64,000 bases of DNA from Ignavibacteria bacterium (lineage in GTDB: Bacteria > Bacteroidota > Ignavibacteria > Tepidaquicellales > Tepidaquicellaceae): positions 1 through 64,000 of the forward strand of contig JABAQZ010000022.1 of the NCBI GenBank assembly GCA_019187405.1, in the 5' to 3' direction. A model generated the notes under the pieces. That model did not search any database. It saw only the letters and a list, made by a program, of their open reading frames with translations, and was not told the origin of the DNA. Made by a program: the position numbers and the translations under genes. The first letter of the stretch is position 1. Each line of letters starts with the position of its first letter. This document shows positions 4,694 through 51,335 of the stretch, in pieces.

Positions 4694-6811
4694 ATGTTAT
4701 ACTCAAAAAGTATTGAGTTAGGGGGAAAGACTCTGACACTCGAAACCGGAAGGCTTGCAAAACAGGCTAACGGTGCTGTAATGGTTTCACTTAACGAAAA
4801 TTATGTATTATGTGCTGTTACTGCTTCAGACGATGTAAAACCGGGACAGGATTTTTTCCCATTAACGGTTGATTATAGAGAAAAGACAGCATCTGTGGGA
4901 AAAATACCCGGAGGTTTTTTTAAAAGAGAAGGAAGACCGACAGAGAAAGAGATTTTATCTTCAAGATTGATAGACAGACCTATAAGACCTTTATTTCCTG
5001 AAGGCTATTTCAATGAGGTGCAGGTGATATGTTCGGTATATTCTTCAGATGGAGAAAATGATGCTGATATAATTGGGCAGATTGGCGCTTCAGCGGCATT
5101 ATTAATATCAGACATACCGTTTACAGATCCAGTATCAGAAGTCAGAGTAACCAGAATAAATGGAGAGATGATAGTAAATCCGACTCATGCACAGCTTGAA
5201 GAAGGAGATTTTGATATAAGCGTTGCAGGAACATTAGATTCAATCATGATGGTCGAAGGTGAAGCAAAAGAAATATCTGAAGCAGAATTTCTTGAAGCAA
5301 TTAAGTTCGCTCACAAACATATAATTGATTTATGTAATTTTCAAATTGAATTTGCGCGTGAGGCAGGAAAAAAGAAAAACGAAATTCCTCCTGCAGCAGA
5401 CAATTCTGAAATGTCATCTGATGTAAGAAAAATCTGTGAAACGGATATAAAAAACTCTACTTCCACAGTAATGACAAAGGAAGAGAGAAAAATGAAGAAC
5501 AGGGAAATTCATGATAACGTCATTAATGCTCTCATTGAAAAATATCCCGAGAAGGAAAAAGAACTTGAAAACATTATACATGATATTCAGTATGAAGTAA
5601 TGAGAGAGATGATATTATCACAACACAAAAGACTTGACGGAAGAGGATTAACAGATATTAGAGAAATTAATGGTGAAATCGGCGTATTACCAAGAACTCA
5701 CGGTTCATCATTGTTTACACGAGGGCAGACACAAAGTTTAACAACAGTAACACTCGGAACGAAAAGGGATGAACAGCTTATAGAAGGATTAAAAGAAATC
5801 AGCACAAAGAGATTTATACTTCATTACAATTTTCCATCATTTAGCACTGGAGAAGTCGGAGGAAGACCGGGTCCTGGAAGAAGAGAAATCGGTCATGGAA
5901 ATCTGGCTGAGCGAGCATTAAAGAATTTGCTGCCAGCCGAAGAAGATTTTCCTTACACAATCAGAGTGGTATCGGATATTCTTGAATCAAACGGTTCTTC
6001 ATCAATGGCAACAGTTTGCGCCGGATCTATGGCTTTGATGGATGCAGGGGTAAAGCTGAAAAAACCAATAGCGGGAATTGCAATGGGACTCATCAAAGAA
6101 GGAGATAAGATTGCCGTGCTTTCAGACATACTCGGAGATGAAGATCATTTCGGTGACATGGATTTTAAAGTTGCCGGAACTGCAGAAGGTATTACGGCAA
6201 TTCAGATGGATATTAAGATAAGAGGGATTTCATTTGAAATAATGGAGAAAGCTCTTCAGCAGGCAAAAGAAGGTCGGCTGCATATTCTTGGAATAATGAA
6301 CAAGTCAATTTCTTCTGCAAGGGAATCAATCTCAAAATATGCTCCTCATCTGTACTCAATGATGATACCTAAAGACATGATAGGAGCAGTTATCGGACCA
6401 GGCGGCAAGACAATAAGAAACATCATTGCCGAAAGCGGAGCAGAAATTGATATTGACGATGAGGGTAAAGTGACAATTGCAGCTGTTGATAAGACACAGG
6501 CTGAGATTGCCAGGAAAATGATTGCGGGACTTACCGCAGTACCTGAAGTTGGTAAAATCTATGATGGTGTTGTTAAAGGAATAAAAGATTTCGGAGCATT
6601 CGTGGAAATACTTCCCGGTAAGGAAGGACTTCTGCATATTTCTGAAATTGATCATAAGCGCACAGTAAAAGTCGAAGATGTACTTAAAGTCGGTCAGGAA
6701 ATTCAGGTAAAATTAATGGGAATAGATGATTCCGGAAAACTTAAACTAAGCAGGAAAGTTCTTTTAGCAAAAGAACCATCAAAACCAAGAGAGCCACAAA
6801 AACATAAATAA
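4694..6811 (+). CDS. pnp: polyribonucleotide nucleotidyltransferase (PNPase)
   Basis: A 705-residue phosphorolytic 3'-5' exoribonuclease, a core component of RNA turnover. I place the start at the ATG at 4694 (MLYSKSIELGGKTLTLETG), not at an upstream in-frame ATG that would overlap rpsO by about 60 nt and add residues unlike the family. Two RNase PH-like halves flank an alpha-helical linker; the catalytic loop of the second half is GDEDHFGDMDFKVAGTAEG with D490 at the position of an active-site aspartate. A KH domain with GPGGKTI near residue 568 and an S1 domain (GVVKGIKDFGAFVEI, roughly 620-690) close the protein. It is separated from the STAS gene by 7 nt, so both are probably translated from one transcript. 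Confidence 0.97.
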   Translation: MLYSKSIELGGKTLTLETGRLAKQANGAVMVSLNENYVLCAVTASDDVKPGQDFFPLTVDYREKTASVGKIPGGFFKREGRPTEKEILSSRLIDRPIRPLFPEGYFNEVQVICSVYSSDGENDADIIGQIGASAALLISDIPFTDPVSEVRVTRINGEMIVNPTHAQLEEGDFDISVAGTLDSIMMVEGEAKEISEAEFLEAIKFAHKHIIDLCNFQIEFAREAGKKKNEIPPAADNSEMSSDVRKICETDIKNSTSTVMTKEERKMKNREIHDNVINALIEKYPEKEKELENIIHDIQYEVMREMILSQHKRLDGRGLTDIREINGEIGVLPRTHGSSLFTRGQTQSLTTVTLGTKRDEQLIEGLKEISTKRFILHYNFPSFSTGEVGGRPGPGRREIGHGNLAERALKNLLPAEEDFPYTIRVVSDILESNGSSSMATVCAGSMALMDAGVKLKKPIAGIAMGLIKEGDKIAVLSDILGDEDHFGDMDFKVAGTAEGITAIQMDIKIRGISFEIMEKALQQAKEGRLHILGIMNKSISSARESISKYAPHLYSMMIPKDMIGAVIGPGGKTIRNIIAESGAEIDIDDEGKVTIAAVDKTQAEIARKMIAGLTAVPEVGKIYDGVVKGIKDFGAFVEILPGKEGLLHISEIDHKRTVKVEDVLKVGQEIQVKLMGIDDSGKLKLSRKVLLAKEPSKPREPQKHK

Positions 6812-6818
6812 GACAGAC

Positions 6819-7124
6819 ATGAAATTTGAAATTGACAAGCAGAAAGATAAGACAATATTCAAGCTTGAATCGAAATCGCTTGACCACACGATAGCTGCAG
6901 ACGTAAAAGCAGAGCTGATATTTCTACAGAAAGAAATAGATAATCAATTTATTATAGATCTGAAAGATGTGACCAAATGTGACAGTTCAGGTTTGTCGGT
7001 GCTTTTACTTTCAGAGAGAATGGAGAGAGAAAAAAACAGAAAACTGATACTGCAAAATGTAAATCCCAATGTAATGGATCTTATGAAAATTGCGAGGCTT
7101 GACAGAGTTTTCAACTTGAAGTAA
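6819..7124 (+). CDS. STAS-domain anti-sigma factor antagonist-like protein
   Basis: A 101-residue single-domain STAS protein of the SpoIIAA/RsbV type. The conserved core IIDLKDVTKCDSSGLSVLL holds the DSSGLS motif (residues 55-60), where phosphorylation of a Ser by a partner kinase normally switches binding to an anti-sigma factor. The end (NPNVMDLMKIARLDRVFNL) also matches the family. No partner kinase or sigma factor is encoded nearby; the gene is tacked on to pnp. A terminator hairpin follows 19 nt after the stop, so it is the last gene of the ribF-rpsO-pnp run. The target pathway is unknown. Confidence 0.85.
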   Translation: MKFEIDKQKDKTIFKLESKSLDHTIAADVKAELIFLQKEIDNQFIIDLKDVTKCDSSGLSVLLLSERMEREKNRKLILQNVNPNVMDLMKIARLDRVFNLK

Positions 7125-7143
7125 TATTTATTACAGAATTAAT

Positions 7144-7178
7144 AAACTCCTTTTGGTTTATACCGGAAGGAGTTTTTT
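7144..7178 (+). terminator. intrinsic terminator after the pnp-STAS operon
   Basis: AAACTCCTT (7144-7152) pairs with AAGGAGTTT (7167-7175) around a 14-nt loop and is followed by a T run. It stands directly downstream of the STAS gene stop codon. Confidence 0.85.
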
Positions 7179-7241
7179 GTTACTCAAAATAATCCGGAGT
7201 GTTATTTAAGAAATATATTTACATAAATATTTTTTTTCATT

Positions 7242-7586
7242 ATGCAAAATGAATATGTAAAAATCTGCAAAATGGAAGATATAAAGGAAGGTATTGGACA
7301 AAGATTTGATATTGATGATGAAAATGAAGCAGCAGTTTTTAAAATCGGAGACGAGTATTATGCTGTTGACAATGTCTGTCCACATAATCATAATGCTAAA
7401 ATATATAAAGGCGATTTGCAAGATAAACACGTGACTTGCCCGGTACATGGATACAGGTTTAGTCTCTTAACAGGCGAACAGCCGGATAAACCCGGGTGCA
7501 GACTGAGAATATTTGAAATAAAAATTGATGGAGGATTTTTGTACATCAAAAAACCCGGAAGGAAAATATTTGATTTTCATTTTTAG
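7242..7586 (+). CDS. Rieske [2Fe-2S] ferredoxin-like protein
   Basis: A 114-residue soluble Rieske protein. The cluster ligands are C46-x-H48 (VCPHNH) and C66-x2-H69 (TCPVHGYRF), the usual CxH-x(17)-CxxH arrangement. No transmembrane anchor, so it resembles ferredoxin components of dioxygenases or NirD-like small subunits rather than cytochrome bc Rieske subunits. No oxygenase partner lies next to it, so its redox partner is unknown. The gene ends in TAG, which shows that TAG is an ordinary stop in this genome. Confidence 0.88.
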   Translation: MQNEYVKICKMEDIKEGIGQRFDIDDENEAAVFKIGDEYYAVDNVCPHNHNAKIYKGDLQDKHVTCPVHGYRFSLLTGEQPDKPGCRLRIFEIKIDGGFLYIKKPGRKIFDFHF

Positions 7587-7657
7587 CAAAATGAATTATG
7601 CGATAATTGGAAATTTGAAGTAATAGATTAAAATAAACAACATCAGTATTAATAATT

Positions 7658-8584
7658 TTGAAAAAAGAACTATCCGATTTCATTAGAAAAGCAAGCGAAA
7701 ATGAAAATTTTATTAAATGCGGATTTTCGAAATTTGAAATTCTGAAAAAAGAAGGAGAGTTATTAAAGGCATGGCTTGATGAAAACAGAAATGGCGAAAT
7801 GAAATGGATGAATAATAGTTTTGAAAAGAGAATCAATCCTTCATTAATACAGGAAGACATTAAATCCGTAATTTCACTCGCTTACATATATGACACGCCA
7901 ATTTTGCATTCCGAAGATTCAAACATTCCGAGAATTTCAAGGTATGCTTGGGGTAACAGGGATTATCATAAAGTAATCAAGAAAAAGTTGAAAAGTATCT
8001 GCAGCGCAATTGAGTCGGGCTTTGAAGGTGTGAAAACAAAATATTACATTGACGACGGACCCGTGATGGATAAAACATGGGCCGTTCGTTCAGGGATCGG
8101 CTGGCAAGGAAAAAACACAAACATTATCAGTAATGAATTCGGCAGTTTCTTTTTTATTGGCACTATATTCATAAATAAGGAACTGGAATATGACAAATCA
8201 ACAGAAGATTTATGTGGATCATGCATGATATGTATCAATGAGTGTCCGACAAATGCGTTATACGATGAGTATAAAATCGATTCAAATCTTTGCATTTCAT
8301 ATCAGACAATTGAAAATAGAGGAGAGATTCCGGAGTCGATAAATATCAAAGGTTGGATTTTCGGCTGTGACATTTGTCAGGATGTTTGCCCTTTTAACGG
8401 TAAAAAAATATTTACATCGGATGAGAATTTTTTTCCTAAAGAGGAAGTGTTTAACAAATCTGCTTTTGAACTAATTAATTTTTCGGAAGAAAAATTCAAT
8501 AAAACTTTTGATGGCACACCTGTAAAGAGAACAAAGTATACCGGCTGGATTAGAAATTTAAAAAAATTTATGGGGACTTTATAA
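7658..8584 (+). CDS. queG: epoxyqueuosine reductase
   Basis: A 308-residue iron-sulfur/cobalamin enzyme for the last step of queuosine synthesis on tRNA (epoxyqueuosine to queuosine). The proton-donor region is YIDDGPVMDKTWAVRSGIGW (D132/D133). Two [4Fe-4S] clusters are marked by CGSCMICINECP (C186, C189, C192, C196) and FGCDICQDVCPFN (C237, C240, C244). The start is a TTG at 7658; the conserved N-terminus begins right there and no ATG fits. Length is slightly below the longer HEAT-containing versions, so this is the short QueG form. Confidence 0.93.
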   Translation: MKKELSDFIRKASENENFIKCGFSKFEILKKEGELLKAWLDENRNGEMKWMNNSFEKRINPSLIQEDIKSVISLAYIYDTPILHSEDSNIPRISRYAWGNRDYHKVIKKKLKSICSAIESGFEGVKTKYYIDDGPVMDKTWAVRSGIGWQGKNTNIISNEFGSFFFIGTIFINKELEYDKSTEDLCGSCMICINECPTNALYDEYKIDSNLCISYQTIENRGEIPESINIKGWIFGCDICQDVCPFNGKKIFTSDENFFPKEEVFNKSAFELINFSEEKFNKTFDGTPVKRTKYTGWIRNLKKFMGTL

Positions 8585-16714: not shown

Positions 16715-17539
16715 ATGAAGGCTGTCTTCAGTTTAGAAACTAAAAACTTTAATGTCGATCTATCGAAACCTCATCCGCTTTCTATCCAGCTTGATTTTTT
16801 TGGCGATCAGCCCAATTCATACAATGTTGAAAATGCATCTGCAAAAACTTATGAAACTTCCGGATTTATTGGCGATACGAGAAAAGGCGGAGGATGCAAT
16901 TTTGAAGTGTATAAAATTATTCCCCACTGCAACGGCACTCATACAGAATGCGTAGGACATATTTCTTTCGAAAGAATTTTTATTAATAATGTACTTACAT
17001 CTGTTATTTTCCCTTGTACGCTGATTTCTGTTATTCCGGAACATGCCTCAGTTACCCAGGATATTTATGTTCCGGGAAAAAATGCAGATGATTTTCTTAT
17101 TACCGAAAAAATTCTAAGGGAAAAACTGATAAACACTAATGAAAATTTCCTTGAAGCGTTGATTATCAGAACCATGCCAAATGATGTCTCAAAAATTTCC
17201 AGACAGTATATGAATACTCCAACTCCTTTCTTTTCTTTGAATGCTATGAATTATATTTCAGAAAAAAATGTAAAGCATCTGCTCATCGATTTGCCTTCTG
17301 TTGACAGAACTTTTGACGAAGGTAAACTTTCAGCACATCATATTTTCTGGAATGTAAAACCGGAATCTCATGACGTAGACAAATACGAACATTCACTCAA
17401 TACAATTACGGAGATGGTTTATGTACCTGATTATATAAAAGATGGTATTTATTTTATAAATATTCAAATACCCGATTTTAAAAGCGATGCCGCACCAAGC
17501 AGGGTTTTTCTTTATGACATTATTCAATCAGAAGATTAG
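16715..17539 (+). CDS. cyclase-family hydrolase, putative kynurenine formamidase
   Basis: A 274-residue metal-dependent hydrolase of the cyclase/KynB superfamily, expected to hydrolyse N-formylkynurenine to kynurenine and formate in this context. The metal site reads PHCNGTHTECVGHI (residues 70-83): compared with the usual HxGTHxDxPxH, the first ligand position is Cys72 (next to His71) and the acid is Glu78, with His76 and His82 kept, so this is a variant subfamily. Further marks are RTMPN, FFSLNAMNYI and DLPSVDRTFDEGKLSAHHIFW. It is the first gene of an operon with two Ntn-hydrolase paralogues, kynureninase and kynurenine monooxygenase, which supports the assignment. No tryptophan dioxygenase is visible in the window. 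Confidence 0.75.
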   Translation: MKAVFSLETKNFNVDLSKPHPLSIQLDFFGDQPNSYNVENASAKTYETSGFIGDTRKGGGCNFEVYKIIPHCNGTHTECVGHISFERIFINNVLTSVIFPCTLISVIPEHASVTQDIYVPGKNADDFLITEKILREKLINTNENFLEALIIRTMPNDVSKISRQYMNTPTPFFSLNAMNYISEKNVKHLLIDLPSVDRTFDEGKLSAHHIFWNVKPESHDVDKYEHSLNTITEMVYVPDYIKDGIYFINIQIPDFKSDAAPSRVFLYDIIQSED

Positions 17540-17560: not shown

Positions 17561-18592
17561 ATGGCTATTGTTAATTCTCTGAAGTTCGATTATCAATCCG
17601 GCGCCGTGATTACGGATGAAGAATTTTTTATCGGAGGCAGAAGGCGTGTGCTTTCCGCTGATAACCTTCAGTTTCTCCTCACCGAAGAAATGAGTAACGA
17701 ACTCGGACTTGAAGCTGTTTACGGTGGCGCAGGAAATATCGCTCTGACAAATCAGATAATTGAAGATATTAGAAATGAATTAAACAAAAATTACAACACT
17801 TATATCAAAAGCGGTAAAACCGGAAAAGTATTCAAAACTGTCGAAGACGTTGCAAGAATTACTCTGAGGATTTTTCAGAATTATTCCAGAGAATATGTTA
17901 ACAGAAAATTAAACGGCTTGTTCGGATTCAGTATAGATGATTTTAACAGAGGTCATTATTTTAAAGACGGAAACAAAATTGACATTACCGAAGATAAAAT
18001 CGTTTCAAAAGCAATGGATATGATTTTGCTGAAACCAGATTATATGAAAGACATTAGTGAATTGGAAGGACTTATAATTGGTACGGACAGCAGTTTTGGA
18101 TTTAATATATTCGATTTTTATGGAGGAATGACGCATCTTTATGTTTCCACAAGCATGTATAATTCAGTCGGCTCCGGCTCAACAACTACTTCTCTTGCAT
18201 TCAGTGAACTTATAAACAATATCACGCTTGATGAAAGAAGAAACGGCATTGACAAAATTTTTGGTATGGCTGAACTTATCAGAATTACAAATCAAACTGC
18301 GGAAAAAAACAGCGAAATCGGAGGATATTACAATATCATTTATCTTAACGGTAACTATGCCAATCATTCTGAAAGGTGTACTGAAATTTCCGGCGATTTG
18401 TCCCAATTCATTAAAGAAACAGTTACTGCTTATGACAGTAATTTTGTTTCAAAGGAACTTTGCTATGGTTTAATCGATGATTACATTTTCAAAAGAAAAA
18501 AATTTGTTCCCGAAGAAGCAGAATCTATCTTGTTTGGTAATGCTTCAGATTGCTATAAACTTGAACTTGTTTTAAGAGGATATAAATTCTGA
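17561..18592 (+). CDS. proteasome-like Ntn-hydrolase paralogue A (active-site residues lost)
   Basis: A 343-residue protein that I read as having the proteasome/HslV-type Ntn fold. The start MAIVNSLKFDYQSGAVITDEEFF matches the first beta hairpin of proteasome beta subunits (TT-x-FxxGVIVAxDSRAS), followed by LEAVYGGAGNIAL (equivalent of the GxAGxxAD helix start) and, after an extra helical insertion (about residues 70-180), SVGSGSTTTSLAF and ...IGGYYNIIYL, matching the STGSG-Y and SGG-NxY parts. The position of the Thr nucleophile is Ala2 and of the catalytic Lys is Asn35; Asp19 is kept. It should therefore be catalytically dead, like a proteasome alpha subunit. Its active-looking paralogue starts 16 nt downstream. 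No signal peptide. Function unknown. Confidence 0.7.
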   Translation: MAIVNSLKFDYQSGAVITDEEFFIGGRRRVLSADNLQFLLTEEMSNELGLEAVYGGAGNIALTNQIIEDIRNELNKNYNTYIKSGKTGKVFKTVEDVARITLRIFQNYSREYVNRKLNGLFGFSIDDFNRGHYFKDGNKIDITEDKIVSKAMDMILLKPDYMKDISELEGLIIGTDSSFGFNIFDFYGGMTHLYVSTSMYNSVGSGSTTTSLAFSELINNITLDERRNGIDKIFGMAELIRITNQTAEKNSEIGGYYNIIYLNGNYANHSERCTEISGDLSQFIKETVTAYDSNFVSKELCYGLIDDYIFKRKKFVPEEAESILFGNASDCYKLELVLRGYKF

Positions 18593-18608
18593 ATTAAATA
18601 AATTTAAA

Positions 18609-19649
18609 ATGACCGTTGTAAATGCACTGATTTTTGACAAACACTCCGGCGCAATGTGCTGCGATGAACAAACTTCTATTGGAGAAGTCAGAAAAATGCT
18701 GTCATCAGATAAAATACAAAAAATAGTTCCTTCTGTAGTCAGAAAAAACTGCAGACTCGAAGCTGTTTATGGCGGATCTGGTACTACTGCCATCGGCGAT
18801 GAAATCCGCCGGAGAATTAAATCAAGAATCAGAAATATTTATGAATCAGGATTGGGAAAAAACGACAACTCCTCTTGTCAGCTTTCGATTGATGAGATTT
18901 TTAAAATTGCTTATGATGAAATGATGAATGTTAAGCATAAGCATATAAACGATATTGTAAACGGATATTTTAATTTCGATACTTCTGATTACGTCAGAGG
19001 ATATTATAATGATAATGAAAAACAAAAGATTGAAATAAAACAGAAAGAGATTAAAGAAAAGGTATTCAATCTTATGAATTGGAATAATGCCTCGGAAGTT
19101 GACAGTATTTTCCTTAATTCGGCTATAATCGGAGGATTTGATGAATCGGGAGTTTTTAAAATATGCAAACTCAGCATGAAAACTGAAATGCTCCTGCAAA
19201 TGCCGTATTCAATTTTCGAAACTATTGGCTCCGGATCCGATTCTGCACAAATAATTTTTTCTGATTATATCGGAAGCAAAACCCTCGACGAAAGAAGAAA
19301 TCACATAGATAAAATCGAAGGCATGATTCAGCTCCTGAGAGCAACTAACGCTGCTGCAAAATATAATATGGGAGTTGGAGGATATTTCAATATTGTTCTC
19401 TTTGATTCAAAGCATGATAACCCTGATAAAAGATTTGCTGAAATATTGAATTCAAATTCAAAACTTGCAAGCGAAGTTGTATTTGCATATTATAATGATT
19501 TTATAAATTATGAAAACACTTACAGCATTATCAACGAACTTGTTTTCAAAAAAGAGAAATCTTTTGATGAACTCAACCGGATGTTTTTTAATATGTCTTC
19601 CGATAAAATTAAAATGCAGAGGTTTCTCAGAGGATATAAAGTTTGCTGA
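18609..19649 (+). CDS. proteasome-like Ntn-hydrolase paralogue B (Thr2/Asp19/Lys35 intact)
   Basis: A 346-residue paralogue of the preceding gene, alignable almost throughout (for example LEAVYGGSG against LEAVYGGAG, TLDERRNHIDKI against TLDERRNGIDKI, FLRGYK against LVLRGYK). Here the N-terminus is MTVVNALIFDKHSGAMCCDEQTS: removal of Met would expose Thr2 as nucleophile, with Asp19 and Lys35 (SSDKIQKI) standing 17 and 33 residues after it, against 16 and 32 for Thr1-Asp17-Lys33 in proteasome beta and HslV. TIGSGSDSAQIIFSDY and VGGYFNIVLFD match the later proteasome strands. Family relatives could include Anbu, HslV or connectase-type Ntn proteins; I cannot decide which. Substrate unknown. It sits between the formamidase and kynureninase genes. 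Confidence 0.72.
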   Translation: MTVVNALIFDKHSGAMCCDEQTSIGEVRKMLSSDKIQKIVPSVVRKNCRLEAVYGGSGTTAIGDEIRRRIKSRIRNIYESGLGKNDNSSCQLSIDEIFKIAYDEMMNVKHKHINDIVNGYFNFDTSDYVRGYYNDNEKQKIEIKQKEIKEKVFNLMNWNNASEVDSIFLNSAIIGGFDESGVFKICKLSMKTEMLLQMPYSIFETIGSGSDSAQIIFSDYIGSKTLDERRNHIDKIEGMIQLLRATNAAAKYNMGVGGYFNIVLFDSKHDNPDKRFAEILNSNSKLASEVVFAYYNDFINYENTYSIINELVFKKEKSFDELNRMFFNMSSDKIKMQRFLRGYKVC

Positions 19650-19694: not shown

Positions 19695-20954
19695 TTGAAA
19701 AATTTTACTCGTGATTTATCCTTCGCAATGGACGCGGATCAGGCGGATCCTTTAAAAAACTTCAGAGATAAATTTTTTATTCCAAAAGATAAAAACGGCA
19801 AAGATGTAATTTACTTTGCCGGTAATTCTCTAGGGCTTCAGCCTAAAACAGTCAGAGCTTACATCGAGCAGGAACTCAAAGACTGGGCGACTCTCGGTGT
19901 TGAAGGTCACTTACATGCAAAAAATCCCTGGCTTCCTTACCATGAGTTCCTTACTCAGCAAACTGCCGAATTGACTGGCGCAAAACCCGAAGAAGTAGTT
20001 AATATGAATTCTCTTTCGGTTAACCTCCATCTGCTCTTTGCTTCTTTTTACAAACCCAAAAAGTATAAAAATAAAATTGTAATTGAATCAAATGCTTTCC
20101 CATCTGATCATTATGCCGTTCAATCACAAATTAAATTTCATGGTTATGACATTGATAGTACTCTTGTTGAAGTTAAGCCTCGATTCGGTGAAGATAATTT
20201 AAGAACCGGAGATATTTTAGATTTCATTGAAATTTTTGGAGATTCCGTTTCATTGCTTTGGTTTGCCGGAGTAAATTATTATACGGGTCAGTCATTTGAA
20301 ATTGAAAAAATTGCTAATGCATGTCATAAAAAAAACATAATTGCCGGATTTGATCTTGCACATTCCGTCGGTAATACATTGCTGAAACTGCATGACTGGA
20401 ATGTTGATTTTGCGGTATGGTGTAATTATAAATATATGAACGGCGGTCCGGGATCTATTGGAGGTGCATTTATTCATGAAAAACATCTGAAGAATTATTC
20501 TCTTCCCAAATTTCTCGGATGGTGGGGACATGACAAAACAACCAGATTTCTTATGGGACATGATTATGTTCCTATTCCTACTGCCGAAAGCTGGCAACTC
20601 AGCAATCCTCCCATTCTTCAGCTTGCATCTCTAAAAGCTTCGCTTGATATTTTTGAAGAAGCAACAATGTCTGCTTTAAGAATGAAAAGCGAAATGCTTA
20701 CGGGATATCTTGAATTTCTAATTAAGGATAGCAATAATGACAACATTGAAATCATAACACCTTCGGATATAACTCAGCGAGGATGTCAGCTTTCTTTACG
20801 CATTAAGAAGAATGGAAAAGAAATGTATCATAGGATGATTTCTGAAGGCGTAATTTGTGACTGGAGAGAACCTGATGTTATAAGAGTTGCTCCGGTGCCA
20901 TTGTATAATGGATTTGCTGATGTATGGAATTTTTCAGAAAAACTAAGACAATAG
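19695..20954 (+). CDS. kynU: kynureninase
   Basis: A 419-residue PLP enzyme cleaving kynurenine to anthranilate (or 3-hydroxykynurenine to 3-hydroxyanthranilate) and alanine. Start is TTG at 19695. Fold type I signatures are complete: FAGNSLGLQP (residues 41-50), the PLP-binding GFDLAHSVGN (218-227), the Schiff-base Lys in CNYKYMNGGPG (K246), and GWWGH. The C-terminal CDWREPDVIRVAPVPLYN is also characteristic. The next gene, 18 nt on, encodes kynurenine 3-monooxygenase, so the physiological substrate is probably 3-hydroxykynurenine. Confidence 0.94.
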   Translation: MKNFTRDLSFAMDADQADPLKNFRDKFFIPKDKNGKDVIYFAGNSLGLQPKTVRAYIEQELKDWATLGVEGHLHAKNPWLPYHEFLTQQTAELTGAKPEEVVNMNSLSVNLHLLFASFYKPKKYKNKIVIESNAFPSDHYAVQSQIKFHGYDIDSTLVEVKPRFGEDNLRTGDILDFIEIFGDSVSLLWFAGVNYYTGQSFEIEKIANACHKKNIIAGFDLAHSVGNTLLKLHDWNVDFAVWCNYKYMNGGPGSIGGAFIHEKHLKNYSLPKFLGWWGHDKTTRFLMGHDYVPIPTAESWQLSNPPILQLASLKASLDIFEEATMSALRMKSEMLTGYLEFLIKDSNNDNIEIITPSDITQRGCQLSLRIKKNGKEMYHRMISEGVICDWREPDVIRVAPVPLYNGFADVWNFSEKLRQ

Positions 20955-20972: not shown

Positions 20973-22334
20973 ATGAAAAAAATTACAATTGTAGGCGCAG
21001 GACTTGCCGGTTCATTGCTTGCCGTATATCTCTCAAAAAAAGGTTTTGAAGTTGGGATTTACGAAAGACGTCCGGATATGAGAAAGCATAATATCGGCGG
21101 AGGTAAATCCATAAACCTTGCTCTCTCCACGCGGGGCATTCATGCATTAAAGGAAGTTGGGCTGTATGATGAAATAAAAAAAATTGCGATTCCTATGTTC
21201 GGAAGAATGATTCATACAAAAGACGGCGATTTGAATTTCCAACGATACGGCAAAGATGATTCCGAATACATTAATGCCGTATCAAGAAGCGAACTGAATA
21301 AATCTCTGATGGACCTTGCCGAAAAAAATTCAAACATTAAAATTCACTTTTCCGAAAGATGCTGCGGAATTGATTTTGAAAAAAATGAAGTTAGTTTTTT
21401 AAATGATGATTCCGGCTCTGAGAAAAAAATGAAATATGAGATTTTAATTGCAACCGACGGCGCGACTTCCGCTGTAAGAATGGAAATGATGAAAAGACCG
21501 AGATTTAATTTTTCACAGCTTTATGAAAATTACGGTTATAAGGAATTGATCATACCTGCAGATGCCAATGGTAAGTTCAGAATGGAAGTAAATACACTTC
21601 ATATCTGGCCCCGCGGTTCTTTTATGCTTATTGCTCTGCCGAATCTTGATGGAAGCTTTACCTGCACTCTCTTTCTTGGATATGATAAATCACTTGGGCG
21701 TGAAAACAGTTTCGAATTTCTTGATAATGAAGACAGAGTCAGAAAGTTTTTTGAAACTAACTTTCCCGATTTTGTAAATCTCCATCCGGATTTTTCATCC
21801 GAATTTTTTCAAAATCCAGTCGGCTCTCTCATGACAGTTAAATGTTATCCATGGATTGTTAATGATAATGCAGCTCTGCTCGGTGATGCTTCCCATGCAA
21901 TTGTCCCTTTTTTCGGACAAGGTATGAATGCGGCTTTTGAAGATTGCGTATATCTTAATTCCTGTATTGATAAGTATAATGGTGACTGGGCAAAAATTTT
22001 CAACGAATATCAGAATTTAAGAAAAGTTAATTCAGATGCAATTGCTGATCTTGCTCAGGAAAATTTTATTGAAATGCGTGACCTTGTTGCCGATAAAAGA
22101 TTTTTATTGAAGAAAAAAATCGAAACCGAACTTTATAAAAAATATCCGGATACATTTGTACCTAAATATACTATGGTTACGTTTATGAGAATTCCATATT
22201 CTGTAGCTTTAAGAAGAGGAAGGATCCAAGAAAACATACTTAATAATCTAAGCTCCGATATTTCAGATGTTTCCGGACTTGACTTTAATTTCGCTGATAA
22301 ATTGATAAAAGAAAATCTTGACAAACTTATGTAA
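20973..22334 (+). CDS. kmo: kynurenine 3-monooxygenase
   Basis: A 453-residue FAD monooxygenase hydroxylating L-kynurenine with NADPH and O2. The dinucleotide-binding GAGLAGSLLAVYL opens the protein; GGGKSINLALSTRG is the substrate/FAD segment typical of KMO; SRSELNKSLMDLAE, LIATDGATSAVR and LLGDASHAIVPFFGQGMNAAFED (the GD motif) follow. The C-terminal helical region (FMRIPYSVALRRG) is membrane-targeting in eukaryotic KMO but here not strongly hydrophobic. It ends the kynurenine operon. Requires oxygen, so the organism is at least facultatively aerobic. Confidence 0.94.
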   Translation: MKKITIVGAGLAGSLLAVYLSKKGFEVGIYERRPDMRKHNIGGGKSINLALSTRGIHALKEVGLYDEIKKIAIPMFGRMIHTKDGDLNFQRYGKDDSEYINAVSRSELNKSLMDLAEKNSNIKIHFSERCCGIDFEKNEVSFLNDDSGSEKKMKYEILIATDGATSAVRMEMMKRPRFNFSQLYENYGYKELIIPADANGKFRMEVNTLHIWPRGSFMLIALPNLDGSFTCTLFLGYDKSLGRENSFEFLDNEDRVRKFFETNFPDFVNLHPDFSSEFFQNPVGSLMTVKCYPWIVNDNAALLGDASHAIVPFFGQGMNAAFEDCVYLNSCIDKYNGDWAKIFNEYQNLRKVNSDAIADLAQENFIEMRDLVADKRFLLKKKIETELYKKYPDTFVPKYTMVTFMRIPYSVALRRGRIQENILNNLSSDISDVSGLDFNFADKLIKENLDKLM

Positions 22335-22422: not shown

Positions 22423-23610
22423 ATGTTTGAAGAATTTGTAGAAAAAAAGATTGAATCTGAAATTGACATTATTAAAAAACTCGCATCTTTAAGTAAGGAA
22501 AATATTCTTAAAAGCGGCATTTCGGAATTTACAAAAAATTTTCTGCTGGTTGAAGCAACTGTTAATTTAAATGAAGAAGCATTATCGAAGAACATTGAAA
22601 AAGCCAATAAGCTTTATTTCAATTATGCTTTGAGACCAAAATGGACGCTTCTTGCATACCTCTTTAACAATTTTGAATCACGTCCACCCGAAGATATAAT
22701 TCATAAACTTGATTATTTTCCTTTCTATAAATTTTATATAGATTCCATAAATAGTTTTCTTAAGCAGAATGCGCAGATATTCATTACTAAAAATGAAATA
22801 CGCTCGATAATCGAAGAAGCTGATAAAGTTATTCTAGAGAAACTTACTTCAGATATTACAAATGATAAAATTAAAAATTTTTTCAAACAGATTTTTCTTT
22901 TGAAATATAATGATGAAGCTGCCGTAAATCTCGAATCAGAAGTACCTTTTTCATTCTTAAAAATATTTCTTTCTGATAAATCTTATGAAGACCTTTTAAA
23001 AAAATTTCAGATTGTATCCGGTCTGCGTGATGACAGCAGTCTCAATCTTAAAGACATTATAAAAATATTATCAGATAAATATGCAAACGCAGAAATCGGA
23101 GCTGATTTAAGTGCAGTTTCTTCAGCTGAAAAAACCAAAGCTAAAACAAAGGAGGATCCAAATCAAATTACCGGCGTAAAAGAAAAAAAAATTATCAAAT
23201 CTGAAACGAAAGAAACGAAAGAAACGGAAGAAACGAAAGAAACGAAAGAAACGGAAGCGCAAAAGATTGAGGATAAAAAGAAAACCGGTATTTATTCGGA
23301 TGAACTTATTAAAGCCGGAAAAAATGAATTGCAAAAAATCCATGCGGAAGAAAAAAATTATACTGTAACCGATTTTAAAATTAATAAACTGCTTTCAGAA
23401 AAACTTAATGATAAAATAACTGAGATAGTTTATAATTCGGATTTAATTGACAAAAGCAAATCCTTCAGTAAACTGGAATCATACAAAACTTGGCTTGAAG
23501 CTTCCGGTCACCTGAAAGAAATATTTAAAAAAAATGAGGTTGATATTTACAATAAAAACGTAATTGAATTCATAAATCTGCTCGAAGAACATTTTAATAA
23601 GATGGAGTAA
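22423..23610 (+). CDS. hypothetical protein, helical, with Lys/Glu/Thr repeat linker
   Basis: A 395-residue protein I do not recognise. About residues 1-215 are predicted helical and charged (EEFVEKKIESEIDIIKKL, EIRSIIEEADKVILEKL); residues about 235-300 are a low-complexity K/E/T linker with repeated KET units; the last 100 residues form a second helical domain (KLLSEKLNDKITEIVYNSDLIDKSKS). No signal peptide or membrane segment. It ends 3 nt before the obgE start codon, so translation is probably coupled. A scaffold or regulatory partner of the GTPase is conceivable but not shown. Confidence 0.7.
   Translation: MFEEFVEKKIESEIDIIKKLASLSKENILKSGISEFTKNFLLVEATVNLNEEALSKNIEKANKLYFNYALRPKWTLLAYLFNNFESRPPEDIIHKLDYFPFYKFYIDSINSFLKQNAQIFITKNEIRSIIEEADKVILEKLTSDITNDKIKNFFKQIFLLKYNDEAAVNLESEVPFSFLKIFLSDKSYEDLLKKFQIVSGLRDDSSLNLKDIIKILSDKYANAEIGADLSAVSSAEKTKAKTKEDPNQITGVKEKKIIKSETKETKETEETKETKETEAQKIEDKKKTGIYSDELIKAGKNELQKIHAEEKNYTVTDFKINKLLSEKLNDKITEIVYNSDLIDKSKSFSKLESYKTWLEASGHLKEIFKKNEVDIYNKNVIEFINLLEEHFNKME
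23202..23257 (+). repeat. 9-bp in-frame tandem repeat coding for the K/E/T linker
   Basis: Six near-perfect copies of GAAACGAAA or GAAACGGAA. The period of three codons keeps the frame (KET/EET units), so copy-number change would lengthen or shorten only the linker. Confidence 0.85.
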
Positions 23611-41504: not shown

Positions 41505-42536
41505 ATGAAAAAAATCGGAATATTATTCGGAATGGAAAATACTTTTCCGGAGGCTTTAGTTAACAGGATAAGAGAAAAGAATGTATCCGGAATAGAAGCC
41601 GAATTCGTTTCAATTGATAAAGTTAAAATGGCAGAATGTATAGGATATGATGTAATATTTGACAGAATTTCACAGGATGTACCTTTTTACAGAGGATTTT
41701 TAAAAAATCAAGCGATTACAGGCACGGCAGTTATTAATAATCCGTTTTGGTGGGAAGCTGATGATAAATTTTTTAACAATGCACTTGCAGAAAAACTCGG
41801 AGTACCTGTTCCAAAAACAGTTTTGCTTCCGTCAAATAAAAATCCGCAGGACACAAGTGAAAACTCGTTCAGAAATCTCAAATTTCCGCTTGACTGGGAA
41901 GGGATATTTGAATACATAAAATTTCCGGCATACTTTAAGCCATTCTCCGGAGGCGGTTGGAAAAGTGTATATAAAGTTACAGACCCGCAGGATTTTTTTG
42001 AAAAATATAATGAAACCGACAGACTCGTAATGATGCTTCAGGAAGAGATAACATTTGATCTTTACTTTAGATGTTATTGTCTTGACAGAAGGGATGTGCT
42101 GATCATGCCTTATGAACCGAGAAATCCTCATCACCTAAGATATGTATCGAGCGCGCCGCCTGCGAGTCAGAAACTTCTCGATCAGATAAAAGAGTATGTT
42201 CTCGTACTCAACAATGCGCTCGGATATGACTTTAATACTGTTGAATTTGCCGTAAGAGACGGGATACCTTATGCAATAGATTTCTGCAATCCGGCTCCGG
42301 ATGCCGACGTTCATTCAGTAGGTCAGGAAAATTTTGACTGGGTTGTGGAGGCAGCGGCAAATATGGCAATAAGAAAAGCACAGCAGCACACTCCGGGAAT
42401 AAATAATCTGACCTGGGGAACATTTGTCAGGTCTTCTGCAAACAATGAGTTGTTAACAAACGGATTTGGAGAAAAAAAAAAGACTAAATCAGTAAAAGCG
42501 GAATCAAAGAAGAAATTAAAAGTTAAAGCAGAATAG
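41505..42536 (+). CDS. ATP-grasp family ligase
   Basis: A 343-residue ATP-grasp protein. An N-terminal Rossmann-like domain (KKIGILFGMENTFPEALVNRI) is followed by the ATP-grasp lid and core: NNPFWWEADDKFFNNALAEKLGVPVPKTVLLPS, FPAYFKPFSGGGWKSVYKV (Lys and Gly-rich loop), LMLQEEI-type hinge, and the magnesium site FNTVEFAVRDGIPYAIDFCNPAPD. The last 25 residues are a Lys-rich tail. It should activate a carboxylate as acyl phosphate and join it to an amine or thiol. First of four genes with GCS2-type ligase, M29-like peptidase and a second ATP-grasp-like protein, spaced 17, -4 and 84 nt. Substrates unknown. Stop TAG. Confidence 0.85.
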   Translation: MKKIGILFGMENTFPEALVNRIREKNVSGIEAEFVSIDKVKMAECIGYDVIFDRISQDVPFYRGFLKNQAITGTAVINNPFWWEADDKFFNNALAEKLGVPVPKTVLLPSNKNPQDTSENSFRNLKFPLDWEGIFEYIKFPAYFKPFSGGGWKSVYKVTDPQDFFEKYNETDRLVMMLQEEITFDLYFRCYCLDRRDVLIMPYEPRNPHHLRYVSSAPPASQKLLDQIKEYVLVLNNALGYDFNTVEFAVRDGIPYAIDFCNPAPDADVHSVGQENFDWVVEAAANMAIRKAQQHTPGINNLTWGTFVRSSANNELLTNGFGEKKKTKSVKAESKKKLKVKAE

Positions 42537-42553
42537 AGATTTAAAATTTTAAA

Positions 42554-43732
42554 ATGTCATCAGAAGAAAAATATACATTAGGAATAGAAGAAGAATTTCA
42601 GATTATTGACCCGGTTACCAGGGAGCTACAGTCTCACATTCACTCCATATTCGAGGAAGGCAAAATGCTGCTGAAGGAAAATTTCAAACCTGAAATGCAT
42701 GCATCAGTAATTGAAACAGGAACTAACATTTGCAAAAACATAAAGGAAGCCAGAAGAGAAGTTACGAAGCTAAGAAATTCGCTTGCGATTTTGTCCGATC
42801 AGTTCGGTCTCCGCATAGCAGCATCTGGTACTCATCCTTTCTCGCACTGGCGCGATCAGGCAATAACAGATCATCCCAGATACAAGGAAATAATTAACGA
42901 AATGCAGGATGCAGCAAGGGCTAATCTCATTTTTGGAATGCATGTTCACGTTGGAATTGCAAACAGAGAAATTGGAATTCAAATCATGAATGCCGCAAGA
43001 TATTTCCTGCCGCATATTTTTGCATTATCGACAAACTCTCCTTTTTGGCTGGGAAGAGATACAGGATTCAAATCATACAGGGTAAAAGTTTTTGATAAAT
43101 TTCCCAGAACCGGAATACCTGATTATTTCAGAAGCATTAATGAATATGACAGCTTTATCGAGCTATTGATAAAAACAAACTGCATAGATAATGCAAAGAA
43201 AGTATGGTGGGATATCAGAACGCATCCTTTTTTCAATACTCTGGAATTCCGGATTTGTGATGTACAGATGACCATCGATGAGACGATTGCGCTTGCCGCT
43301 CTGATTCAGGCGGTTGTGGTAAAGCTTCACAGGCTCATTCAGCAGAATCTTGGATTCAGAATTTACGGAAGAGCATTGATGATGGAAAACAAATGGCGAG
43401 CTGCCCGATACGGCATTCACGGAAAACTTATAGATTTCGGAAAACAGATTGAAGTTCCGTTTTCTGCGCTTGTAGTAGAATTACTTGATTTTATTGATGA
43501 TGTAGTGGACGAACTGGAAAGCCGTGAAGAGATAAATTATATTTTTAAAATGCTGCAGCATGGAACAGGCGCAGACAGACAGCTGAAGGTTTGGAATGAT
43601 TCCGGACAGGATTTTAACAAGCTTTTGGATTACATCATAGATGAAACAAATAAAGGACTTGAATACAAACCCACCAATATTAAACAAGACAACAATAAAA
43701 TCTCAAACACATTAAAAACTGTTACAAAATGA
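42554..43732 (+). CDS. GCS2/YbdK-type glutamate-cysteine ligase-like carboxylate-amine ligase
   Basis: A 392-residue protein of the glutamate-cysteine ligase family 2. The N-terminus YTLGIEEEFQIIDPVTREL holds the metal-binding EEE; later come HASVIETGTNICKNI, IAASGTHPFSHW, FGMHVHVGI and NTLEFRICDVQMT, all family marks. It could form a gamma-glutamyl or other amide bond with ATP. Neighbouring ATP-grasp genes suggest stepwise assembly of a small peptide-like molecule. It overlaps the next gene by the ATGA of stop and start, so the two are translationally coupled. Confidence 0.9.
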   Translation: MSSEEKYTLGIEEEFQIIDPVTRELQSHIHSIFEEGKMLLKENFKPEMHASVIETGTNICKNIKEARREVTKLRNSLAILSDQFGLRIAASGTHPFSHWRDQAITDHPRYKEIINEMQDAARANLIFGMHVHVGIANREIGIQIMNAARYFLPHIFALSTNSPFWLGRDTGFKSYRVKVFDKFPRTGIPDYFRSINEYDSFIELLIKTNCIDNAKKVWWDIRTHPFFNTLEFRICDVQMTIDETIALAALIQAVVVKLHRLIQQNLGFRIYGRALMMENKWRAARYGIHGKLIDFGKQIEVPFSALVVELLDFIDDVVDELESREEINYIFKMLQHGTGADRQLKVWNDSGQDFNKLLDYIIDETNKGLEYKPTNIKQDNNKISNTLKTVTK

Positions 43733-44751
43733 AAAATTCGTTTATTGCTGATGTTGATTTTGACGAAGAACTGTCAGAAGGCGCATATAATGCTATAAAT
43801 ACATGCCTTCAGCTTAAACCGCATGAAAGAATCACTATCATAACCGACAATGATTCGATTGAAATTGCATCTTCTCTAATTAATGAAGTAAATAAGATCG
43901 GTTCAGAGCATAGTCTTTTGGTAATTGAAGATTACACAAGCAGACCAATGACGGAAATGCCTAAGCAGATTCTCGACGATCTTTCGAAATCGCAGGTCAG
44001 CATTTTTTGCGCGCTTGCAGGAATGGGTGAACTTGGAGCACGTATTCAGATGACAGCCATTGTTAATGCACATAAAATCAGGCACGGACACATGGTAAAC
44101 ATCAACAAGCAGATAATGAAGGAAGGCATGAGAGCAAATTTTCTTGAAGTAGATGATTTGAGCCAGCGTTTGATTGACAAAGCCAGAAAAGCCCGGTACA
44201 TCAGAGCAAAGTCAAAAGGCGGAACGGACATAGTAGCGGAGTTTTCACCTAAGCTGAAGTGGCTGAAAACAAGCGGTATAATTTCAGTCGATAAGTGGGG
44301 AAATCTTCCCGGAGGAGAAATATTCACTTCACCTCTGAATGTTGAAGGTATGTTTGTCTGTGACGGTGTGGTGGGAGATTACCTCTGCCATAAATACGGG
44401 GATCTTAAAGAAACTCCGTTGTATATCAACATAGTGGATTCAAGAATTAAGGAAATGAATTGTCACAATACATATCTTCTCGAAGAGATGACTGAATATA
44501 CACAAACTGATGAAAACAGCAACAGGGTTGGTGAATTTGCAATCGGTACTAACATTGCTTTAAAAAATGTCATCGGACATATTCTGCAGGATGAAAAGCT
44601 GCCGAGTATTCACATGGCATTCGGACATCCTTATTCGGAGCATACAGGTGCGAACTGGGTTTCGACTACTCATATTGACTGCGTCGGCATAGATTTCGAC
44701 ATCTGGCTTGAAGACGAAAAAGTAATGGAAAACGGAAAATTTCTGATTTGA
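43729..44751 (+). CDS. M29-type aminopeptidase-like metalloprotein
   Basis: A 340-residue protein similar to the thermophilic (AmpS/AmpT, clan MQ) aminopeptidase fold. Marks: NLPGGEIFTSP (first Glu ligand), VGEFAIGTNIAL (second Glu), IHMAFGHPY (His) and THIDC (His-x-Asp). Relatives of this fold also act as ring-cleaving dioxygenases (2,5-dihydroxypyridine type), so peptidase activity is not certain. No signal peptide. Between a GCS2 ligase and an ATP-grasp-like gene it might trim or transfer an aminoacyl group of the product. Confidence 0.82.
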   Translation: MKNSFIADVDFDEELSEGAYNAINTCLQLKPHERITIITDNDSIEIASSLINEVNKIGSEHSLLVIEDYTSRPMTEMPKQILDDLSKSQVSIFCALAGMGELGARIQMTAIVNAHKIRHGHMVNINKQIMKEGMRANFLEVDDLSQRLIDKARKARYIRAKSKGGTDIVAEFSPKLKWLKTSGIISVDKWGNLPGGEIFTSPLNVEGMFVCDGVVGDYLCHKYGDLKETPLYINIVDSRIKEMNCHNTYLLEEMTEYTQTDENSNRVGEFAIGTNIALKNVIGHILQDEKLPSIHMAFGHPYSEHTGANWVSTTHIDCVGIDFDIWLEDEKVMENGKFLI

Positions 44752-44835
44752 TTTTTTTCTGTTTCGTAAGAGTATAATTGAAAATTTTTCTGACTTCAGC
44801 CCATTTTCTAAAATATGTTTTTGCTTTACCTTTAA

Positions 44836-46026
44836 ATGATTAAAAGCCTCAGAGATAAGTACAATTCTGAATTTTCGGAAAGCGTTTATAATAACTTCGT
44901 AAAAGATCTCGATGCAGAATTTAATTTTAAAATTGAGTTCAGGATTGCAGAAACTCCGATTTTCCTGCCTGATGATTTATTAAAAGAAATTTTAAAAGCA
45001 TCGGATGAACTCGTTGCCGTTATTCAGTCAGAAGATTTTTTGGATTACTCCAAAAGAGCTCTTCCCGGTAATCTTGCCGTTCCCAATGAAGATGTGCATA
45101 CTTCTCTGCTTGCAATTGATTTTGCAATATGCAGAGACGACAAAGGAAATTACATTCCTCAGCTGATTGAGCTCCAGGGATTTGCTTCTTTATATTGTTA
45201 TCAGCAGCTTTTAAGCCGGAAACTGAATGAGCATTTCGACATTGACAGCCGTCTTACAAATTTTTTTAATGGGTATGATTATGATCCTTATATTAAAAAA
45301 ATAAAGGAAATAATTGTCGGGGATAGCGATCCAGAAAATGTCATACTTCTCGAAATAGAACCCGAAAAGCAAAAAACATACATTGATTTTTTATGTACCG
45401 AAAAATATCTCGGCATAAAATCAGTCTGCATTTCCGACATAAAAAAAGAAGGAAAAAAACTCTTCTATGAAATTAACGGGAAAAAAATACCTGTTGACAG
45501 AATTTATAACAGGGTTATACATGACGAGCTTGTTAAAAGATCGGATATAAAATATGATTTCAGATTTACAGATGAGCTGGATGTAAAGTGGATTGCGCAT
45601 CCAAACTGGTTTTTCAAGATAAGCAAATTTTCTCTGCCATTCTTGAAAAGCAAATATGTTCCCGAAACAAGATTTTTGAACGATGTGGAAACATTGCCGG
45701 AGGATCTTGAAAACTATGTGTTAAAGCCGTTGTATTCATTTGCCGGAGCCGGAGTTATTTTTGATTTGAAAAAATCCGATATTGACTCTATTAAGGACAA
45801 ATCAAATTACATCCTTCAGAGGAAAATAAAATACGAACCAGTCATAAGTACACCCGACATTCCAGCAAAAGCAGAATTACGATTGTTGTATGTATGGGAT
45901 GACAAGCCGCTGCTAATTAATAATCTTGTCAGATTAAGCAAAGGAAAAATGATGGGAGTTGATTTTAACAAGGATAAAACCTGGGTTGGCTCGAGCATTG
46001 CTTTTTTTAATAAAGATATTGCATAG
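44836..46026 (+). CDS. ATP-grasp-like protein, second of the cluster
   Basis: A 396-residue protein with only weak family resemblance. PKLIELQGFASLYCYQQLL-type and VDRIYNRVIHDELVKRS segments, then HPNWFFKISKFSLPFLKSKYVPETRFLNDV followed by LENYVLKPLYSFAGAGVIFDL look like an ATP-grasp lid (Lys plus Gly-rich loop) and AELRLLYVWDDKPLL like the metal site region. The order resembles glutathionylspermidine-synthase-like or other permuted ATP-grasp enzymes. Probably a second amide-forming ligase. It is 84 nt after the M29-like gene and closed by a strong terminator, so it ends the operon. Confidence 0.6.
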   Translation: MIKSLRDKYNSEFSESVYNNFVKDLDAEFNFKIEFRIAETPIFLPDDLLKEILKASDELVAVIQSEDFLDYSKRALPGNLAVPNEDVHTSLLAIDFAICRDDKGNYIPQLIELQGFASLYCYQQLLSRKLNEHFDIDSRLTNFFNGYDYDPYIKKIKEIIVGDSDPENVILLEIEPEKQKTYIDFLCTEKYLGIKSVCISDIKKEGKKLFYEINGKKIPVDRIYNRVIHDELVKRSDIKYDFRFTDELDVKWIAHPNWFFKISKFSLPFLKSKYVPETRFLNDVETLPEDLENYVLKPLYSFAGAGVIFDLKKSDIDSIKDKSNYILQRKIKYEPVISTPDIPAKAELRLLYVWDDKPLLINNLVRLSKGKMMGVDFNKDKTWVGSSIAFFNKDIA

Positions 46027-50954: not shown

Positions 50955-51335
50955 GATAAAATTAAATGAGATGTTTAGTTGATAAAACATATTTGATAAA
51001 TTATTACAATGCAACATAAAAAACAGACACAATCAAAACTGCGGAAAAAATCAAAACTTTAGAGTAAAACAGATATTAACTGTAATAATGAAGAGATGAT
51101 AAATTATTCTTCTGGCAATATTCCTTTATTAATTGCAATTCGATTAAAAGAACACAAAATTTACTATACAAATTCAGAAAATTTCGAAAAGGAGAAATTT
51201 CATTTCTGTATTGAGTTGTAAAGAATCTTAATATTGGCTATTTTTGTCAAAACTTAAACTGAGTATTTAATCAGAACGCCTGATCCTGAGTTCTCGGGAT
51301 AGGTCGCAGAAAAATAGTTCTTTAGAGATTAAAAC
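50955..51335. other. gap with a possible tRNA-Asp relic
   Basis: No gene seen. At 51273-51307 the sequence AGAACGCCTGA ... AGGTCGC repeats the D-stem/anticodon-stem and variable-loop words of the tRNA-Asp gene lying 60-90 nt downstream, with a different middle that itself folds (ATCCTGAG/CTCGGGAT). It cannot form a full tRNA. Confidence 0.4.

Follow-up and report, generated by a model that had tools for sequence, protein, structure and literature searches.

A pair of proteasome-like proteins

The hallmark of the 20S proteasome, a stack of four heptameric rings, is the division of labour between its alpha and beta subunits. Anbu is encoded by one gene, has alpha-E and transglutaminase as partners (PMC6376114) and comes from operons that include an ATP-grasp; for the Anbu operon, an amide-ligase-coupled system had been proposed (PMC5666114, PMC6376114). 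Anbu with an intact triad exhibits no peptidase activity in vitro (PMC6376114). The survey of Fuchs et al. (2021) states that the catalytic triad is common to all of its proteasome homologues, and the connectase described there shows that a monomeric state is possible for proteasome-like proteins (PMC8665760). A term search of this survey found no active/inactive tandem pair, and a term search of a 2026 proteasome review likewise gave no sign of one. The locus described here encodes such a pair. The literature searched describes no other example among the prokaryotic homologues of the proteasome, and the combination of a proteasome-like protein with a dead partner is considered new.

The A/B gene pair

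The window is a stretch of 64,000 nucleotides from the genome of an Ignavibacteria bacterium (contig JABAQZ010000022.1) and contains two adjacent proteasome-like genes on the forward strand. The first, gene A (17561–18592), encodes a catalytically degenerate protein of 343 aa, and the second, gene B (18609–19649), encodes a triad-bearing protein of 346 aa. Both assignments draw on the ORF, the predicted fold and a set of homologues (35 for A, 40 for B). The genes are separated by an intergenic gap of 16 bp, and their products align end to end with 33% identity over 345 residues (E = 3e-54) and four gap positions. An earlier reading, made from the sequence only, had placed two adjacent ORFs of about 345 residues each at these positions, with Thr2-Asp19-Lys35 in B and Ala2-Asp19-Asn35 in A, and the translations bear out both statements.

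The B product begins with M-T-V-V-N and carries Thr2 (codon 18612–18614), the predicted N-terminal nucleophile. It also carries Asp19 (18663–18665) and Lys35 (18711–18713), the equivalents of Asp17 and Lys33 of the proteasome, and Ser208 (19230–19232), which lies within a GSG motif and is equivalent to the Ser129 region. The A product begins with M-A-I-V-N and carries Ala2 and Asp19, with Asn35 (17663–17665) at the position of the lost lysine, as seen in the ORF translation and by comparison with homologues. Relative to the proteasome (T1-D17-K33), the Thr-to-Asp spacing of B is longer by one residue and the Asp-to-Lys spacing is equal. These residue equivalences are deduced from strand order, from spacing and, for the GSG segment, from a profile alignment. 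Both proteins feature a near-invariant C-terminal L-R-G-Y-K motif, located at 18572–18586 in A by homologue alignment and at 19626–19640 in B. The motif is of low confidence in both monomer models, and these tails may dock in the partner subunit.

Predicted structure

For the AlphaFold2 models, ten homologues of each protein were aligned as input. The B model has a mean pLDDT of 84.4 and a pTM of 0.83, and the A model has a mean pLDDT of 86.8 and a pTM of 0.85. Foldseek analysis against the PDB gave 994 matches at E ≤ 0.001 for the B model (best E about 5e-8) and 1052 for the A model (best E about 6e-9). The best 50 matches of each model are all proteasome or Anbu chains, and the target TM-scores among them are mostly 0.6–0.8. 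By prediction, both proteins adopt a proteasome-type Ntn sandwich composed of two sheets with flanking helices H1–H4, and on this point the models and the Foldseek matches agree with the fold proposed in the sequence-only reading.

The N-terminal hairpin of the B model is formed by S1 (residues 3–8) and S2 (residues 13–19), with Asp19 at the hairpin end. S3 begins just past Lys35 and a Gly-rich turn (G55–G58) precedes H1, giving the same order of features as Thr1, Asp17, Lys33 and Gly47 in the proteasome. Candidates for the equivalent of the oxyanion-hole residue Gly47 are G58 (40/40 B proteins) and G55 (36/40). An insertion composed of a hairpin and helices follows H1/H2 and precedes the next core strand, at approximately residues 122–170 (18972–19118; boundaries approximate, from DSSP of the model), and a helical C-terminal extension covers approximately residues 301–340 of the model. 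An extra helical insertion had been anticipated from the sequence, and the model adds the C-terminal extension to it. The A model opens directly with the first core strand and does not contain an N-terminal H0 helix.

As with the alpha and beta subunits of the 20S proteasome, a single Ntn fold is represented here by two paralogues, only one of which carries Thr-Asp-Lys, and the likeness extends to the fold matches and to profile matches with both alpha and beta chains. However, A has no counterpart of the N-terminal H0 extension found in alpha subunits, B has its Thr directly after the Met with no propeptide, and both proteins carry the post-H2 insertion and the helical C-terminal extension. 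Neither matches PF00227, and no conserved AAA+ partner or linked unfoldase was seen among the A/B neighbours. The logic of alpha/beta rings that was first suggested for this locus stands as an analogy only; the presence of one active and one inactive copy fits it, and the absence of an alpha-type H0 from A does not. Fuchs et al. 2021 (PMC8665760) raise the possibility that insertions after H1/H2 hinder the formation of rings or act as a cap, and for this reason we make no claim of stacked rings for A and B.

Other members of the superfamily show partial likeness to the pair. PHI, PMI-3 and PMI-4 share the insertion after H1/H2 and a patchy distribution, and the group II proteins of the same survey resemble both alpha and beta subunits, as is the case here (Fuchs et al. 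2021, PMC8665760). B could fall within a PMI/PHI cluster, the comparison being one of published descriptions. Anbu is among the best fold matches, has its Thr directly after the Met, and has an ATP-grasp in common with some A-B operons, but exhibits no detectable close sequence similarity to A or B. Its alpha-E and transglutaminase partners were not recognised among the A/B neighbours examined, which are partly annotated. Since Anbu showed no peptidase activity in vitro (PMC6376114), the intact triad of B is no guarantee of peptidase activity. The connectase shares the Ntn fold and the exposed Thr (predicted in B), but it lacks H1/H2 and carries a two-helix insertion between S3 and S4, whereas B has H1 and H2 with the insertion following H2.

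Sequence relationship to known families

Scans of A and B against Pfam (including PF00227), NCBIfam and PADLOC did not provide a credible match. Family profiles built from the 35 A and 40 B proteins were run against the PDB sequence set. The best matches of the A profile are proteasome alpha subunits (E = 0.0018), and those of the B profile are proteasome alpha and beta subunits at E = 0.06 and above. The kinship to the proteasome that these profiles suggest is remote and weak, but consistent with the predicted fold.

The PHROG "peptidase HslV family" is matched by 17 of the 40 B proteins (best E = 5.2e-6) and by no A protein. B shares with HslV these weak matches and the Thr-Asp-Lys residues, but differs in having no PF00227 match, no HslU encoded beside it and no in-register profile alignment, as judged by a local hhalign comparison with 12 low-diversity HslV sequences. 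The same genome encodes a separate, genuine PF00227 protein elsewhere, which is most likely HslV. Matches of A/B relatives to DUF5773, urocanase and CARF were weak and limited to single proteins, and these were discarded. The fold matches found in BFVD were also discarded, being ordinary phage HslV-like proteins with coverage of the core only. No A/B relatives were detected among plasmids, phages and IMG/VR at the sensitivity used.

Conservation of the active site

A total of 75 different relatives were collected and sorted by profile score into 40 B and 35 A proteins. Thr2, Asp19, Lys35 and Ser208 are each present in 40/40 B proteins, against a mean column identity of 46%. The G207-S208-G209 motif is also invariant (40/40) and aligns with the AIGSG segment of the proteasome. 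The Thr is found next to the initiator codon in all 40 B proteins, with the start codon placed by conservation. Among the A proteins, Asp19 is retained in 35/35, and neither Thr2 nor Lys35 occurs (0/35 for each). Position 2 of A is occupied by Ala (21), Gly (7) or Ser (7), and position 35 by Asn (18), His (6), Ser (5), Tyr (2), Cys (2), Phe (1) or Ala (1). Some residual chemistry in A is possible given the Ser at position 2 of seven proteins. Because the triad is invariant in B at 46% mean identity and its Thr and Lys are missing from every A protein, the pattern is not due to chance. What the earlier reading had seen in a single genome, a triad in one copy only, is therefore a conserved rule, and Thr2 and Lys35 do not vary freely among the homologues surveyed.

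Since the sorting profiles had contained the active-site columns, the tree was rebuilt with these columns masked. In this quick tree, made with no bootstrap, A and B form the two sides of one branch with an SH-aLRT value of 99. The persistence of the two clades indicates that the A/B split predates the spread over phyla, or that the cassette was transferred as a unit.

Pairing, co-divergence and distribution

B is located downstream of A on the same strand for 35/35 A genes, and the reverse order, B followed by A, was found 0 times. The distance between the genes is within 100 bp in 34/35 pairs, 14 of which exhibit a 4-bp overlap. The only interrupted pair is from a planctomycete (L029/L099), where a methyltransferase-like gene (L099, 3655–4323) lies between A and B.

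Pairwise distances among the A proteins correlate with those among the B proteins (r = 0.90; 0 of 5000 permutations as high), and the correlation is 0.86 when the Ignavibacteria are reduced to one representative. This parallel divergence shows co-inheritance, as expected of an obligate partner, and falls short of proving contact. Purifying selection acts on A almost as strongly as on B, with pN/pS of 0.14–0.26 where dS is saturated and dN/dS of about 0.05 elsewhere. The possibility that A is a decaying pseudogene is ruled out by this selection together with the conservation of A. The residue rule, the masked clades, the tandem order and the parallel divergence (r = 0.90) mark A and B, on sequence evidence, as an ancient and co-inherited pair of an active enzyme and a pseudo-enzyme.

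The relatives belong to four bacterial groups, namely Ignavibacteria-type Bacteroidota, Planctomycetota, Eremiobacterota and one small phylum. Within the window's own family they are present in 7/29 genomes, and 395 genomes drawn from the window's phylum yielded no relatives outside those seven. They occur in 3/294 genomes of Planctomycetota, in 2/149 genomes of the Eremiobacterota phylum and in 7/8 genomes of the small phylum, which was reached through a "Zod_Metabat" metagenome genome. Several single genomes encode two to four separate pairs, and nearly all of the paralogues are still paired. The many paralogous pairs within the one small phylum suggest a function of real weight there.

Proposed function of the pair

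We interpret A and B as two subunits of a heteromeric proteasome-like Ntn hydrolase, with B as the catalytic subunit and A as its non-catalytic partner, and place the probability of this reading at about 0.72. A hetero-complex is the most likely arrangement of the pair. The sequence-only reading had proposed one, and it is now strongly favoured by the tandem order, the 4-bp overlaps, the selection on A and the parallel divergence, although contact between A and B is still inferred. The two proteins would be produced together through translational coupling. Methionine aminopeptidase is predicted to remove the Met and expose Thr2 of B, the hydroxyl of which, activated by Lys35, Asp19 and Ser208, would attack an amide bond. 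After Met removal, B would thus be a Thr-nucleophile amidohydrolase or transferase. A, which has the same fold and has lost the nucleophile and the lysine, may be a structural, gating or substrate-recognising partner.

A wider proposal, which we regard as evenly balanced, is that the pair represents a distinct lineage of the proteasome superfamily, confined to bacteria and with its own alpha/beta-like split. It would then be a near-obligate two-gene cassette that occurs in several phyla and has been duplicated repeatedly as a unit of two. Its product would be a heteromeric Thr hydrolase or ligase that is self-compartmentalising or gated in some other way. A second alpha/beta-like case would provide a comparison point for how a catalytic subunit gains a non-catalytic partner, be it the outcome of an independent duplication or a sister to the duplication of the proteasome. 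The recurrence of the couple in distantly related bacteria points to an unstudied two-part machine with a proteasome-like division of labour, and at two genes it is small enough for testing in E. coli.

Putative ligase and peptidase genes near some pairs

Some of the neighbouring genes suggest a role in amide-ligase-coupled peptide synthesis, tagging or trimming, in which B would be an amidase or transpeptidase. This role is compatible with the heteromer and is held as a tentative possibility. In two genomes of the collection (G918 and G919), an M20 peptidase is encoded 21–30 bp before A and a circularly permuted ATP-grasp 51 bp after B. In a third genome (G467), one A-B locus has the M20 peptidase only and another has an M29 peptidase 60 bp after B. 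As Anbu operons also carry an ATP-grasp (PMC5666114, PMC6376114), the role is a reasonable lead, though one drawn from few loci of one small phylum, and no genes of this kind adjoin the pair in the window. The three loci with A-B directly behind the M20 peptidase (L114, L117 and L034, the first two followed by the circularly permuted ATP-grasp at 51 bp) belong to one A/B subfamily of this phylum.

The window does contain an operon at 41505–46026 that encodes an ATP-grasp-like protein, a GCS2 protein of the glutamate-cysteine ligase family (PF04107), an M29 peptidase and another protein of ATP-grasp type. The first of the two ATP-grasp-like proteins has no Pfam match, and both ATP-grasp calls are a reading of the sequences. 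From its gene content, the operon looks like an amide-ligase/peptidase system, and it is present in a subclade of the window's family. Its co-occurrence with A/B in the family is significant by a Fisher test. This association was set aside as confounded by ancestry, since A/B, kynU and the operon track nearly the same set of genomes.

Ser/Thr protein kinase genes are located near A-B pairs at four loci from three phyla (L097, L101, L102 and L037), which may be chance; some of these kinases carry AAA/TPR or repeat domains. Elsewhere in the window, at 46092–51032, a protein of 1646 aa carries a C25 peptidase domain of the gingipain family, with FlgD_ig/CHU_C-type sorting regions at its C terminus, features that are typical of type IX secretion cargo.

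B genes without A

A is found directly upstream of B for 35 of the 40 B genes. Among the five B genes with no A, two are at contig ends with a partial A, one is the second B of an A-B-B array, and two are apparently single. The single genes, both intact and both from Eremiobacterota, are found at L038 and L052, and from these B may work alone. It could accordingly be a homo-oligomeric or monomeric Ntn enzyme in its own right, with A as a regulator or decoy that binds the substrate or, transiently, B. The A-B-B array and the precedent of the connectase as a monomeric protein (PMC8665760) lend themselves to this explanation. It is nonetheless unlikely, given the regular placement of A upstream of B, the nature of three of the five exceptions and the parallel divergence of the two proteins, and the heteromer of A and B is retained as the preferred reading.

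The solitary, triad-bearing B gene at L038 (genome G466, 5167–6255) forms the deepest branch on the B side of the tree; it could resemble the state before duplication or reflect loss of A. The solitary B gene at L052 is located beside a transposase. In the A-B-B array (L035 of G467, 5201–8437), both B copies keep T2/D19/K35, and one of them is the longest branch of the tree.

The kynurenine operon

The gene directly upstream of A (16715–17539, forward strand) encodes a formamidase-like cyclase with a Pfam match to PF04199, with a score well below the TIGR03035 arylformamidase cut-off. B is followed on the same strand by a kynureninase gene (19695–20954; TIGR01814, E = 3.9e-136) and by a gene for an FAD monooxygenase (20973–22334; PF01494), which from its context is predicted to be kynurenine 3-monooxygenase-like. 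The pair was originally described as lying between formamidase and kynureninase, and this gene order is confirmed.

The position between the formamidase gene and kynU is kept in five of the seven family genomes that carry the pair, and in the other two (G006 and G018) the pair is far from kynU. An empty site is present in G011 (L178, 4215–6317), which is of the same genus as a genome carrying the pair; here 48 bp separate the formamidase gene from kynU, and A/B is missing from the gap. In the other phyla, the neighbours of the pair are unrelated to the kynurenine operon. A/B is a removable cassette within this operon. A part in tryptophan/kynurenine breakdown, for example in the turnover of a pathway enzyme, as the sequence-only reading had hinted, is highly improbable and does not hold as the core function: the conserved position in five genomes and the restriction of A/B to kynU-positive family genomes (kynU in 7/7 A/B genomes vs 7/22 others, p = 0.002, uncorrected for ancestry) are outweighed by the two relocated pairs, by G011 and other genomes with the operon and no A/B, and by the unrelated neighbours in other phyla. 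Downstream of the monooxygenase gene, the window encodes a 395-aa protein (22423–23610) that has no Pfam match; in four further family genomes it is conserved next to kmo and, in most cases, obg.
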